From Methyloligella sp. (GTDB taxonomy: Bacteria; Pseudomonadota; Alphaproteobacteria; Rhizobiales; HXMU1428-3): 64,000 bases of DNA. This document shows, in pieces, positions 15,178-30,724 of this stretch; position 1 is the first letter of the stretch, and each line of letters opens with the position of its first letter. The stretch lies in NCBI GenBank assembly GCA_021604645.1, contig BQJJ01000003.1, forward strand, positions 1 through 64,000, given 5' to 3'. The notes under the pieces are model-generated. The model did no database searches. It was not told the DNA's origin and saw only the letters and a program-made list of their open reading frames with translations. A program made the translations under genes and the position numbers.

Positions 15178-16210
15178 TAATGAGTGTTTTTTGTAGCTTG
15201 AGTTTTTCTGATAGCTTTTTTAATTGCCCTGGAGGGCTTGCGAAGAGGGCCGTTGATGCTGCGTCTGCTTTGGTTGCTGTTTCTGCTAGTACGTAGATTT
15301 CTCGCCATGCTGGTTGGTTAGAACCTGTACGCGGGTCTAACATATGATGAAGGCCTGTTAGGCCTTTAAATTGATAGCCATTATGACTTGAAGCTGCGAG
15401 CGCGTTATTTTTTAGGTTCCAAATCTCAGGGGTTGTTTCATTGGTATTTGTTTTTCCTAACTGGATGTTCCATCCATGCTCGTTGTTCTGCTGAGGGTGT
15501 TTTGATCCAGAACCAACATATTCTCCAAAATTAACAAGTGTATTTTTAAACCCATTTGCTTTGAGAATTTCAACAGCTTTATCGGTTATGTAACCTTGGG
15601 CGATGCCATTGAGAGTGATGGCCATCTGTGGAACTTTAAAAGCGATATGATTGTTGGCAATTTCAATGTTTTTCCAATTGATTAAATTTATTGCTTCTTT
15701 AACTGAGGGCTGGGGAATACTGTCTTCTGAACGGTTTACATTGTTCAAATTTTTATATGCCATGAATAATGGCTGAATGGTTGGGTCAAAGGCGCCGTCT
15801 GATAGCTTGGAATATTTAACTGCTTCAGTGATGAGTTCTTTAAATTCTTTTGGGGGGGATTTGTAGATGCCGTTTATATTGAGTTGATTGATAAGTGAAT
15901 TTTTCTGATAAAGGCTGAAATAACTTTCTAACCTTTTTATTTCCATAAGCATTTTTGTGATTGTTGTTTTTGCATGAGCTGTATTTTCTGTGGTCAATAG
16001 GATAGAGGCATCGCTTCCAAGGACTATGCCTTGCCAACTGACTTGTTTAAGCCTGTTTTCCGTTGTTTGGCCGTTTGCTTTTGTTTGCGCTGCATACAGA
16101 GCTGACGGAGCTAGCAGTACTGAGCCGATGATTTGTAAGGACCGACGCCTGGTTATATGTGATTGGTTTTTCTTTGTTTGGTTTTGGTGATCTTTTGTAA
16201 ACTGGTTCAT
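15146..16210 (-). CDS. apbE: FAD:protein FMN transferase
   Basis: A 354-residue ApbE-family enzyme with a twin-arginine-like signal (RRRSLQIIGSVLLAPSALYA). Visible family regions are the GSDASILL strand, the ITLNGIAQGYITDKAVEILKANGF motif (about 205-230, flavin-binding), LVNFGEYVGSG and HHMLDPRTGSNQPAW, and a metal-binding KADAASTALF near the end. ApbE attaches FMN covalently to Thr/Ser of target flavoproteins outside the cytoplasm. It overlaps the upstream NosR-like gene by 4 bases (ATGA) with GGAGAAAG before the start, so that protein is almost certainly its substrate. Confidence 0.92.
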   Translation of the reverse strand: MNQFTKDHQNQTKKNQSHITRRRSLQIIGSVLLAPSALYAAQTKANGQTTENRLKQVSWQGIVLGSDASILLTTENTAHAKTTITKMLMEIKRLESYFSLYQKNSLINQLNINGIYKSPPKEFKELITEAVKYSKLSDGAFDPTIQPLFMAYKNLNNVNRSEDSIPQPSVKEAINLINWKNIEIANNHIAFKVPQMAITLNGIAQGYITDKAVEILKANGFKNTLVNFGEYVGSGSKHPQQNNEHGWNIQLGKTNTNETTPEIWNLKNNALAASSHNGYQFKGLTGLHHMLDPRTGSNQPAWREIYVLAETATKADAASTALFASPPGQLKKLSEKLKLQKTLIIKNNGAKLKI

Positions 16211-18324
16211 GAACTTTCTCCATTAACTTTTGACGTGTTTTTGCTTTCTAGAATTAATGGAACGCATGTTTTCTTATCATCATGAATTGAAACGCAATCC
16301 AAACATTGGAAACATTCACTGTAGTCTATTTTACCAGATGGTTTGATTGATTGGTAATTGCACCGCACATTACAAAGCTGGCAGGGTGATCCACATTCTT
16401 TGCGGCGCGGTATCCAATTAACAGTTCTTAGTATACCGCCTAATGAGAGGAATGCGCCGAGAGGGCAGGCATAGCGGCAAAAAGCTTTGAAGATGAACAT
16501 GGACAAAACAAGCCAGAAAGCTGCATAGAGCATGAAAGGCCAAGTGCGCCAGAAGTAAAGGGTGATGGCTGTTTTAAAGGGCTCTACTTCTGCGATGATT
16601 TCAGCGTAACTTGGTGCGAAAAAAGAAGTAAATATTATCGCGAACAGAATGACGTATTTAATATATTTTAGTTGGTCATCTAGTTTTTGTTTTATTCTTA
16701 TGGGCTTCACCTTCAGGAATTGCCCCAGCTTTGAGCTGAATTCCTGCAGGACGCCATAAGGGCAAAGCCAGCCACAAAATGTACCGCGTCCCCAAACAAA
16801 AAAACTAAAAATAACAGCAATCCAAAGTACCGTAGAGAGAGGATCATAAAGGAGGAACGAAAAGCCTGGTGATGCTTTGAATGTTTTGATTAAAGCAATA
16901 ACAGTGACGATTGAGAGTTGGGCCTGGCCGTACCAGCCAATGAAGAGAAGCGTAAAGGCTAATATAACTGGACGGAGGATTTTTAGGTTTTTAGGAATTG
17001 CGAGCCAGCTTTGCCGCCAGAAAAGCAATGCATAGAGGCCAATTAGGAATGAAAGTAAGACTACCAGGTTTGTGCTTTGTGCTCGCCAAGATGCAGCCCA
17101 GGGACTTTCCGTTTCTGAACGGATGTCAGCTTCAGGGAAATCAAAGAAACGTTTCGGCAGATTATAGGTTACGATTAAGTCTTTCTCGATGACTTTTGGT
17201 TGGAAGAACCCTTTTTTGCGCTCTACGCCCAAATGTAATTGCCAGGGGGAGGCAGGATCAAAACCAAAGCGGCGATCAAGTGCGAAAATATAAGCTTGGC
17301 TTTCAGGGGTGAGCCGAAGCGCTTTAGTGAGGCCGTTTTCTGCGTTTAATTTAACATCTATGTAGGTGTCTCGCATGTTTATGGCGAGGTCGTTTTGTTT
17401 GATGGTTATTTTTTCAGGTACTGAGGCTGGTGTAAAATCTTCTTTTAAAAGCTGATGTCTGCCATTGGCGATGATTAGTACCGGGACTTTTGTTTTGCCT
17501 AGATGTTTGAAGGTTTCTTTAAAGGTCTCTTTTGAAAGTAAGTTTTTTGCGATTGTTGGAACACTTAAATCTGCCAGAATGACTTCGCTGAAAAGCTCCT
17601 CAGGGGTGCTAGCAGCTATCTCGTCCGCATCGGAGACCTCTGTCTTTTCAAATATTTTTTGAACGTCTTTGTTTGAGAATTTATGTATTTTAACAAGGTT
17701 TTGGTTCAATAAATCTTTGATGGTTTTCTTTTCAAAATAGTTTGCTTTAGCAATGGCGGCTGGTTTTGTATTTAAGCCTTTTAGTTTTTTTCGAGCAATT
17801 TGCAACGAGGCAGCGAGAATTGTTTCGTTCATGATGCGCACTGAGGCTGTCGCCATGGCAACACCATCAATCTGGTTCTTGGCTCGCTCAGCTTTTTGGG
17901 TACTTAGTTGAACTTTGATGTTTTGGGCAACCGAGAGACCTGGGTATTGATTGATGAATTTATCAAGAGGCAGACTGCCATGGCCGTTGACGAATACGGG
18001 CTCATTGTGCTCAAGGACTTTTACATCAATAAAATTCCCCTCAAAATCCATTTGAACTAGCAAATTTATTGGCGCTCCGGAAAAGCCTGGAATTTTTATG
18101 AGGTCTATGGTTTGAAAAACGTAACCGGTTTGTTTATCTGCTGAATTTAATAAAGCATATAACGGTAAGCTGGGGTCTTTTTCACCGAGTGAAAAGGGCG
18201 GGATGATTAGCTTTTTTAATTGATCTTCTGAAAATTTTGCAAAACTCGGGTTTATATAAAACAGTGAGATGATCAATAGTGAAATTAAACTAAAAAGAAA
18301 ATTTGATTTCCTTTTTCTCTGCAT
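16207..18324 (-). CDS. NosR/NirI-like flavin and iron-sulfur membrane protein
   Basis: A 705-residue membrane protein. A signal/anchor segment (about 8-28) leads into a periplasmic FMN-binding domain whose flavinylation motif (GVAMATASV, in the position of S-G-A-T) puts FMN on about Thr159. Then come a large periplasmic region, about five membrane helices (430-650), two cytoplasmic C-x3-C-P motifs (FCGWLCPYG and FCRYACPLG) and a C-terminal pair of 4Fe-4S clusters (CGSPCQLCNVRC; CFQCLDC). This is the NosR/NirI plan. The start at 18324 has GGGGAG upstream; the ATG at 18336 merely contains that site. No nosZDFYL genes are present. Neighbours are apbE, an SPW protein and a YHS protein, so it probably moves electrons from the quinone pool or cytoplasm to a periplasmic acceptor other than nitrous oxide reductase. 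Confidence 0.88.
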   Translation of the reverse strand: MQRKRKSNFLFSLISLLIISLFYINPSFAKFSEDQLKKLIIPPFSLGEKDPSLPLYALLNSADKQTGYVFQTIDLIKIPGFSGAPINLLVQMDFEGNFIDVKVLEHNEPVFVNGHGSLPLDKFINQYPGLSVAQNIKVQLSTQKAERAKNQIDGVAMATASVRIMNETILAASLQIARKKLKGLNTKPAAIAKANYFEKKTIKDLLNQNLVKIHKFSNKDVQKIFEKTEVSDADEIAASTPEELFSEVILADLSVPTIAKNLLSKETFKETFKHLGKTKVPVLIIANGRHQLLKEDFTPASVPEKITIKQNDLAINMRDTYIDVKLNAENGLTKALRLTPESQAYIFALDRRFGFDPASPWQLHLGVERKKGFFQPKVIEKDLIVTYNLPKRFFDFPEADIRSETESPWAASWRAQSTNLVVLLSFLIGLYALLFWRQSWLAIPKNLKILRPVILAFTLLFIGWYGQAQLSIVTVIALIKTFKASPGFSFLLYDPLSTVLWIAVIFSFFVWGRGTFCGWLCPYGVLQEFSSKLGQFLKVKPIRIKQKLDDQLKYIKYVILFAIIFTSFFAPSYAEIIAEVEPFKTAITLYFWRTWPFMLYAAFWLVLSMFIFKAFCRYACPLGAFLSLGGILRTVNWIPRRKECGSPCQLCNVRCNYQSIKPSGKIDYSECFQCLDCVSIHDDKKTCVPLILESKNTSKVNGESS

Positions 18325-18488
18325 ATTTCTCCCCATTTGAAACTTTTTTGTTTCGTTTGTTTTTTTACTAAACTTAACATGGGGATGAAGAGATGGGCTT
18401 TTTATAATTGTAAGAATTTTGTGAGAAGCTGGTTGTTTGTTGGCATAAAGGTGAAAGTTTTTATCAGATTTGTAAATTAATTTAACAA

Positions 18489-20773: not shown

Positions 20774-21172
20774 TTAACGGAAACGTCCCAATTTTTGTAA
20801 CACTTCAATTTTATAGCCGTCCGGGTCTTCTATGAAGAAGAATTTAGCAAGAGCTTTTTGCTCATGATTGAAATTGACAATATCTTTTGGAGATAATCCA
20901 AGAGAAGATAGTCTTTGATGTTCGCTCTCTAAATCATCAACAACAAACGCTAAGTGACCATATCCGGTGCCATGCTCATAAGGAGTTGTTTGGGATTTGT
21001 TAATTGTGAGCTCTAACTCAAAGCTTTGTTCTTCATTGCTCATATAGATAAGGGTGAAGTCATCAAAATCTAGTCTCTCTGCAATGGTTAAATTAAATGC
21101 AGATTGATAGAAATTAACGGAAGTCTCTTCGCTCAGAACTCTGATCATTGTGTGGATCATTTTTGCTGGCAT
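20774..21172 (-). CDS. gloA: Lactoylglutathione lyase (glyoxalase I)
   Basis: A 132-residue enzyme of the vicinal oxygen chelate fold. It isomerises the methylglyoxal-glutathione hemithioacetal to S-lactoylglutathione. The four metal ligands of the nickel-type enzyme are visible: His7 (MIHTMIRV), Glu54 (ELELT), His73 (GYGHLAFVV) and Glu123 (GYKIEVLQ). The length matches the bacterial enzyme. AAAGG precedes the ATG. It is a single gene, with no terminator readable in the gap to the AraC gene. Confidence 0.92.
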   Translation of the reverse strand: MPAKMIHTMIRVLSEETSVNFYQSAFNLTIAERLDFDDFTLIYMSNEEQSFELELTINKSQTTPYEHGTGYGHLAFVVDDLESEHQRLSSLGLSPKDIVNFNHEQKALAKFFFIEDPDGYKIEVLQKLGRFR

Positions 21173-21471
21173 TGGCTTACCTTTCTAATGTTCTCCTCGG
21201 TTGGAATTGAAAGCATATTGGTTTTTTGTTTTTTTGCTACGGATATCTTTATGATCCGGACTTTTAGATTATGATACAAAATGGGATTGGTTTTGAGATT
21301 TATAATGAATGTTTCATTTTGGGAGGATCATTGAGAGACAAAAAGCCAGAATTTGGAGAATGTTTAATTGAAAGCCAAAGAGAACTATCTTTAAGTCGTT
21401 GATTTTTATTGTTAAAATTTAATTTTTTGGTTTTCTCTTCTATTGGCATTTGGCTTGCTATATAGTTTAAC
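21173..21471. other. Gap upstream of gloA and of the RNA candidate
   Basis: About 300 AT-rich bases without a convincing reading frame. It should hold the minus-strand gloA promoter. TATAGT at 21461-21466 is the best -10 for the plus-strand RNA candidate that follows; no good -35 is seen 17 bases upstream of it. Confidence 0.3.
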
Positions 21472-21654
21472 AAAATCTGAACACTTCTTAGAGTTCTTTA
21501 TATATTGCCTCTGAACACGACAATATTTGAATTAGAAATGTCTGAACAACTTATCTGAGTTTTTGTATATCTGAACACATACATAACTGAACATATGTAA
21601 GTCTGAACGATGAACCGCTGCTTTCACCCCTGATGAAAGTGGCGGTTTTTGTTT
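21472..21654 (+). ncRNA. Candidate small RNA with six CTGAAC motifs
   Basis: CTGAAC occurs at 21477, 21511, 21542, 21571, 21587 and 21602 (intervals 34, 31, 29, 16 and 15, near multiples of 15-16). Five of the six are preceded by T. Two motifs sit in hairpin loops: ATATTG (21502-21507) / CAATAT (21521-21526) around the second, and TACATA (21580-21585) / TATGTA (21594-21599) around the fifth. The region ends at a strong plus-strand terminator, yet no plus-strand gene lies upstream. This layout (repeated short motif in loops and linkers, then an intrinsic terminator) is typical of trans-acting small RNAs. The 5' end is a guess from a TATAGT box at 21461. No known family is recognised. Confidence 0.5.
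21612..21654 (+). terminator. Strong intrinsic terminator with no upstream gene
   Basis: AACCGCTGCTTTCA (21612-21625) pairs with TGAAAGTGGCGGTT (21633-21646) with two G-U pairs and loop CCCCTGA, followed by TTTGTTTT. The T tract is on the plus strand, so it does not serve the convergent minus-strand bioC-like gene. Confidence 0.8.
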
Positions 21655-21661
21655 TAGAAGA

Positions 21662-22420
21662 TTATTTTATGGAAGTTGTAGAGGATAATTGTCCATAAAT
21701 GATGTGCCAGGATAGGGTGGCGCTGTGAGTTTCTTCTAACTTTTTCATAGCCAGTTTTAATTGCGGCGAAGAGAGTGGGGTATAGCCTGGTTTTGGGCTG
21801 TGGGCGCCTGTCAATTTTAGGCCTTTTAAGAAGTCTTTTGCACTGCCGTAAGACACCGGAATTGTTTCATTTTCTATTATTCCTGGCAAGCCGGGTGGTA
21901 TTCTTAAGCCATTTTCAAAATTAAGTGCGTTTAAAGTCTCCCTCCATTCTTTAAAACAATTTGGTCCGATGGTGGAATAATGAAACGTTCCCGTTTGGGT
22001 AAGGGCTGATTGAATTGATTTGAGCGAATTCAACATATCATTGAACCAATGAATGGCCATACTTGATATGATTAGATCATATTTTTCTTGATCGTTAGGG
22101 CTCATACCCTTTTCAGGGTTTAGTATTTTAAAAGTGAACTGAGCTTTTTGTTTTGGAAACTGCTTGCAGAGTTTTTGTTCTGCCGTACCTAACATGGCTT
22201 TAGAGATGTCTGTGAATGTGTAGTTTGCGTCAGGGTATTTTTTTACAATTTCAGTTGAAAGCAAGCCGGTGCCGCAGCCAATTTCCAAAATATTTTCTGG
22301 GGCACTTTTGTTAATTTGGTTGTTAAGGGTTAGTGCGACCTGGTTTTGAATTTCAGCGTAATTATCATAGGTTTTAGCTGACTTTCCAAAACGGCGCTTG
22401 ATACCGATTTCGTCGTTCAA
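21662..22420 (-). CDS. bioC: BioC-like malonyl-ACP O-methyltransferase
   Basis: A 252-residue class I SAM-dependent methyltransferase. Visible are the BioC-type start (KRRFGKSAKTYDNYAEIQNQVA), motif I ILEIGCGTGLLS (about 43-54), acidic loop FTDISKAML and post-motif region IISSMAIHWFNDM. BioC methylates malonyl-ACP to prime pimelate synthesis for biotin. No other biotin genes are in the window, so the symbol rests on sequence pattern only; another methyltransferase is possible. The start is TTG at 22420 with a weak ribosome-binding site. Confidence 0.72.
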   Translation of the reverse strand: MNDEIGIKRRFGKSAKTYDNYAEIQNQVALTLNNQINKSAPENILEIGCGTGLLSTEIVKKYPDANYTFTDISKAMLGTAEQKLCKQFPKQKAQFTFKILNPEKGMSPNDQEKYDLIISSMAIHWFNDMLNSLKSIQSALTQTGTFHYSTIGPNCFKEWRETLNALNFENGLRIPPGLPGIIENETIPVSYGSAKDFLKGLKLTGAHSPKPGYTPLSSPQLKLAMKKLEETHSATLSWHIIYGQLSSTTSIK

Positions 22421-30633: not shown

Positions 30634-30724
30634 TGTTACATACAGAAATCGTATTATTGTAGCACCTGCTTTTTAGGCATTTAGGTTGCTTATTTTTACT
30701 TAAGATGCCCAGAAAGCATCCGCC
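30605..30724 (-). repeat. REP-like hairpin repeats between tyrS and HAD gene
   Basis: Unit 3 has GTTGCC (30611-30616) CACCA GGCAAC (30622-30627). Unit 4 has GATGC (30704-30708) CCAGAAA GCATC (30716-30720). Both are flanked by CTTCA/CTTAA on the left and CCG on the right, as in the units at 10031-10119. A decayed fragment may lie at 30680-30690. Confidence 0.6.

Follow-up and report, generated by a model that had tools for sequence, protein, structure and literature searches.

A repeated CUGAAC motif behind a probable sigma-54 promoter: a candidate small-RNA gene in Methyloligella

A short intergenic region in the genome of Methyloligella sp. contains six copies of the hexamer CTGAAC, followed by a strong terminator. 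This raises the question whether the region is the gene of a small RNA and, if so, what an RNA with so many copies of one motif would bind. The region belongs to a stretch of 64,000 nucleotides (the window), which is part of contig 3 of a 3.57 Mb genome (G000). It is located between a minus-strand glyoxalase-like gene (20774–21172) and a minus-strand methyltransferase-like gene (21662–22420). Both gene names were assigned by inspecting the sequences. An earlier note on this DNA read the region as a small RNA. The comparison with two relatives (G002 and G003) supports this reading: the block is kept in both and a probable sigma-54 promoter heads it. The region is a well-supported candidate for the gene of a small RNA, with a probable sigma-54 promoter and one motif in several copies, and is present in three genomes of one genus.

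The motif array and its predicted promoter

The features of the region are listed by their positions in the window.

21282–21335, plus strand: conserved upstream block (TGGGATTGG, TGTTTCATTTTGG), about 135–190 bases before the predicted start; possible activator-binding site
21443–21459, plus strand: predicted sigma-54 promoter TTGGCATTTGGCTTGCT, GG-N10-GC; best score in the window; G002 and G003 each share 16 of its 17 bases
21470–21655, plus strand: predicted small RNA of about 185 bases, the conserved block between promoter and terminator; putative start 12 bases past the -12 element
21477–21482, plus strand: CTGAAC copy 1; intact in G003, CTGAAT in G002
21502–21526, plus strand: hairpin ATATTG (21502–21507)/CAATAT (21521–21526) with copy 2 in the loop; pairs lettered on both sides kept in three sequences, none varies
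21511–21516, plus strand: CTGAAC copy 2; intact in all three genomes, within a 29-base invariant run
21542–21547, plus strand: CTGAAC copy 3; intact in G002, TTGAAC in G003
21571–21576, plus strand: CTGAAC copy 4; intact in all three genomes
21580–21599, plus strand: hairpin TACATA (21580–21585)/TATGTA (21594–21599) with copy 5 in the loop; innermost pair A-U here, G-C in G002 and G003
21587–21592, plus strand: CTGAAC copy 5; intact in all three genomes
21603–21608, plus strand: CTGAAC copy 6; not conserved, CTAAAT in G002 and CTAAAA in G003
21612–21648, plus strand: intrinsic terminator of 15 pairs; 13 pairs counted, all kept in three genomes

The six copies reported in the earlier note are all found. 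They start at 21477, 21511, 21542, 21571, 21587 and 21603 on the plus strand (span 21477–21608). Five of them read TCTGAAC, as the note had stated; the one that departs from this, at 21587, reads ACTGAAC. From copy to copy the distances are 34, 31, 29, 16 and 16 bases, and intervals close to multiples of 15–16, as previously described, hold roughly. Degenerate copies, TTGAAT (21527) and CTGAGT (21556), fill two wide gaps of the array.

CTGAAC is the sole plus-strand hexamer in the window with at least six non-overlapping copies per 132 bases. On the minus strand only its complement reaches six, which is the same array. Such clustering was seen in none of 60 order-3 Markov windows (plus strand, hexamers with at least three different letters). 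The maximum CTGAAC count per 137 bases in 200 simulated windows was one in 104 windows, two in 94 and three in 2.

The left edge of the conserved unit is formed by TTGGCATTTGGYTTGCT (21443–21459), a GG-N10-GC site of the sigma-54 (-24/-12) type. In sigma-54 promoters the GG and GC boxes are 10 bases apart. With 33 of 35 against the consensus used for scoring, the site outscores all others on either strand of the window. In Markov-1 sequences such sites number 0.7 per 64 kb, both strands counted; by arithmetic from this rate, a chance site on the right strand of a given 60 bases is expected with a probability of about 0.0003. The site at 21443 differs from the relatives by one C/T change in the spacer, and GG and GC are invariant in the three genomes. 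PMC4842269 describes sigma-54 promoters with GG and GC boxes at -24 and -12. The GG-N10-GC spacing together with TTGGCA and TTGCT probably places the site in this class. The promoter core is without match in viral contigs. A further sequence close to a sigma-54 site, TAGGCATTTAGGTTGCT, is found at 30674 on the plus strand, where two open frames of the minus strand leave a short gap, possibly by chance.

The genome encodes rpoN and has 15 matches to the sigma-54 activator domain, 10 of them strong. Among the strong ones, NtrC, NtrX, FlbD and RtcR score above the NCBIfam cut-offs. One activator of about 480 residues (L049) may, judged by open-frame lengths alone, be limited to G000, G002, G003 and G006. 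In the less conserved leader ahead of the promoter, the runs 21282–21290 and 21310–21322, some 150–190 bases upstream, are identical in the three genomes. The block 21282–21335 lies where an activator site would be expected and may possibly serve as one; no known activator site was recognised in it. Elsewhere in the window, a 709-residue protein is encoded on the minus strand (16207–18336), some relatives of which are named NosR/NirI family or transcriptional regulator of nitric oxide reductase.

The predicted start at about 21470 is some seven bases ahead of copy 1. At the other end, the strong plus-strand terminator that the earlier note had called an orphan is present, but it is not entirely an orphan. 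It ends only 13 bases from the stop codon of the methyltransferase-like gene, and its reverse side in G003 also runs into a T-run. For both reasons the hairpin probably serves both strands.

Conservation within the genus

Among 61 genomes searched at the DNA level, the block was found only in G000, G002 and G003. A covariance model built from these sequences, run with stricter filters for large sets, returned the same three among 101 genomes. Within the genus, the block is present in three of eight genomes (two of the seven others). Given this distribution, the RNA appears narrow in occurrence and would be either young or fast-evolving.

Both relatives carry the block between the same two genes as in the window, with identities of 91% (G002) and 83% (G003). 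The earlier note had named as adverse the loss of copies and hairpins between conserved flanking genes; these two relatives present the opposite picture. The promoter is 94% identical in each and the stretch from the promoter end to +1 is 100% identical in each. For the array the values are 90% (G002) and 80% (G003), for the terminator 95% and 84%. The 97 bases directly upstream of the conserved unit are just 58% (G002) and 48% (G003) identical.

Each relative keeps four of the six CTGAAC copies intact. When copies 1–5 are set apart, one of 30 motif bases is changed in G002 and one of 30 in G003, against 13 of 108 and 27 of 108 (16 of these being gaps) in the rest of the array. If copy 6 is counted, motif and spacer are alike in G002 (3/36 and 11/102), whereas the difference stays in G003 (3/36 and 25/102, 16 being gaps). 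In G003 the stretch from copy 2 to copy 3 has lost 15 bases, roughly one unit of 15–16 bases. Short identical motifs set in changeable spacers would be more in keeping with independent binding sites than with a single long region of pairing.

The methyltransferase-like gene has a relative in all eight genomes of the genus. In G001, G004, G005 and G007 this relative is only 48–50% identical and a different gene lies on the side of the array. In G006 it is 74% identical and the contig ends inside the gene, which hides the place of the array. In the stretches read at the same intergenic place in five other genomes of the genus, CTGAAC occurred only singly and scattered.

In G000 itself, a search at the DNA level returned only the window copy of the block. 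Three TCTGAAC copies with gaps of 20–32 gave three overlapping matches there, all in the array. Three CTGAAC copies with gaps of 5–35 gave five matches at two places (control: 0). The second place (L099:840–1115, plus strand, also L142; G000:C2:358.5–358.8 kb) is intergenic and has five CTGAAC copies with a strong terminator-like hairpin at the end. The whole stretch, hairpin included, is more stable than its shuffles (z -5.04). Five copies are present in G000, four in G002, two in G003 and one in G006, and a conserved stretch (AATATAAGCATCAAA..AATCTCGCAACGTT) lies upstream. About 0.15–0.25 chance triplets are expected in the genome (arithmetic from the window frequency), and for this reason the second locus is not taken as proof of a family.

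Folding, exposure and possible partners

Both perfect hairpins with CTGAAC in their loops that the earlier note described are present. Covariation is confined to one pair changed on both sides in three sequences; 152 of 500 shuffles equal that, which does not reject chance. Taken by itself, the array is not more stable than shuffled sequences (z +1.18 in G000, -1.10 in G002); array plus terminator is (z -2.67). A loose structure is predicted for the array.

The predicted unpaired probability of the motif copies, degenerate ones included, compared with the rest of the core is 0.55 vs 0.40 in G000, 0.67 vs 0.35 in G002 and 0.71 vs 0.42 in G003. Random hexamer sets are at least as exposed in fractions of 0.066, 0.013 and 0.032, respectively. 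This collective exposure rests on copies 2, 4 and 5, which are predicted to be exposed, whereas copies 1, 3 and 6 show no clear excess of exposure over the whole core (predicted values 0.32–0.52 vs 0.42–0.49).

A small protein as the product was considered and rejected. Plus-strand ATG frames of at least five residues are only 5–7 long and none is common to the three genomes (ATG starts were covered). In addition, G003 carries a one-base deletion.

The reading placed first, tentatively and at somewhat less than an even chance, is a sigma-54-dependent non-coding RNA of about 185 bases whose six CUGAAC copies (five UCUGAAC) would make it a multi-site decoy that binds and titrates a partner, either an RNA-binding protein or another RNA. 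RpoN would transcribe it from the GG-N10-GC site at 21443, activated by an enhancer-binding protein at the conserved upstream block (about 21282–21335), and the RNA would be released at the terminator (21612–21648). Above all copies 2, 4 and 5 would be exposed, two of them in hairpin loops. With the activating signal on, the RNA would titrate its partner. Confidence in the decoy is lowered by the count with copy 6 and by the uneven exposure of the copies.

A sigma-54-dependent small RNA that pairs with mRNAs, its UCUGAAC copies being repeated antisense seeds for GUUCAGA sites in several messages, is a serious though doubtful alternative. The seed is repeated and partly exposed, and one candidate target exists, the leader of a Flp pilin gene (L106:940–1030, plus strand), in which TGTTCAGAGGCACTGA is conserved in G002 and nearly so in G006. 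About 65–70 bases before the ATG this leader holds TGTTCAGAGGCA, a perfect 12-base complement of copy 2 and its flank. The complement is intact in G002, and one base differs in G006, where a G-U pair may form. Local duplexes have energies of -21.4 kcal/mol (G000) and -22.0 kcal/mol (G002). Local values were used since the program joins remote pieces when whole leaders are given. Those whole-leader energies, set aside for this reason, rank the Flp leader 4 of 99; values at least as good came in G000 from 9 leader shuffles and 22 RNA shuffles (300 each), in G002 from 2 and 1 (300 each). However, the lead was chosen after the fact and ranks 2 of 98 leaders, the whole leader is conserved, and the site is kept in G006, in which no such RNA was found. 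The wider target scan also speaks against pairing. An ATG comes within 25 bases after TGTTCAGA 57 times in G000, 49 in G002 and 38 in G003 (reversed pattern: 10, 11 and 17). Target enrichment from this excess was rejected, because 44 of the 51 G000 sites examined lie inside called genes on either strand; one of the other seven is coding on inspection. None of the 51 has a called gene start between 12 bases before and 45 bases after the motif end. These are 51 of 52 distinct sites, the one in the window being left out, and the simple gene caller missed at least one gene (L093). The scan for GTTCAG near start codons proposed in the earlier note thus yielded no called start within 45 bases at these sites. 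As no gene start was found beside a perfect complement, titration is moderately preferred over antisense pairing.

It is improbable that the same RNA arises from an ordinary sigma-70 promoter, with an accidental GG-N10-GC match. TGCTATATA is readable as an extended -10 element and a weak -35/-10 pair is predicted at 21467–21494, but that pair would start transcription inside the array. TTGGCA is just 10 bases from TATATA, which is wrong for a -35 element, and conservation begins at the -24 element, with GG and GC kept in three genomes. Slightly less probable still is that a regulator binds the repeats as double-stranded DNA and that the terminator belongs to the methyltransferase-like gene alone. 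Spacings of 29–34 and 16 bases come close to three turns and one and a half turns of the helix, and the nearness of the terminator to that gene's stop and the reverse T-run in G003 agree with this. On the other hand, CTGAAC is not palindromic, and the 15-base loss in G003 moves copy 3 about one and a half turns nearer copy 2, so that the unit is kept and the helical face lost. Promoter and array form a single conserved unit on the plus strand that runs to a plus-strand terminator, and the innermost hairpin pair changed on both sides is a further, weak argument. That the array is a functionless chance repeat in conserved intergenic DNA is very improbable: few genomes carry it, which would agree with chance, but its conservation is well above that of the adjacent upstream DNA and the 60 simulated windows never reproduced the clustering.

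From a multi-site decoy RNA one can read the motif that the titrated regulator recognises. If the RNA is a true decoy, the repeated heptamer would be the bait for an unrecognised RNA-binding regulator and the sigma-54 promoter would tell the class of signal. Were it to act by base pairing, it would still be a regulator under sigma-54 control in which one seed is repeated several times. A more far-reaching and rather unlikely proposal is that UCUGAAC is the recognition code of a new global RNA-binding regulator or hub small RNA in the genus. The sigma-54 signal would then free its targets via the decoy RNA, a counterpart of CrcZ/RsmZ with a new motif, possibly joined by the second CTGAAC RNA at G000:C2:358.6 kb.

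Comparison with known regulatory RNAs

The earlier note recognised no named family, in agreement with Rfam 15, which at gathering score yields only a tRNA at 65–138 in the whole window and no match for the array. Among the matches listed for literature on CUGAAC small RNAs, sigma-54-dependent small RNAs, NrsZ and CrcZ, the titles and the starts of the abstracts hold no description of the RNA. AAYAAYAA, the A-rich (CA) motif for Hfq/Crc, is absent from the predicted transcript. Its neighbours are the methyltransferase-like and glyoxalase-like genes and not cbrB, as would be a trait of the CrcZ family.

According to PMC8395346, CrcZ and CrcY of Pseudomonas are RpoN/CbrB-driven decoys of Hfq with several motif copies. 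The RNA described here resembles CrcZ in its (predicted) RpoN promoter, its intergenic position, its non-coding nature and its several motif copies. In contrast, CrcZ of PAO1 is 407 nt long, has A-rich motifs and lies between cbrB and pcnB (PMC8395346), whereas the present RNA of about 185 nt has UCUGAAC, lies beside a methyltransferase-like gene and belongs to an alphaproteobacterial order. NrsZ of Pseudomonas is described there as an RpoN/NtrC-driven small RNA of about 226 nt that is encoded beside ntrC and activates rhlA through its leader. RpoN control (predicted here) and a similar size are shared; here, however, ntrC is on another contig (G000:C16). The decoy RNAs of CsrA/RsmA, as described in PMC8395346, present the protein motif GGA in stem-loops. 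The likeness is that of an RNA proposed to offer sites that titrate a regulator; the array (21470–21611) is without GGA. Since its motif and neighbouring genes differ, the RNA belongs to neither the CrcZ nor the NrsZ family. In working principle it appears nearest to CrcZ and, should it act by pairing, to NrsZ.
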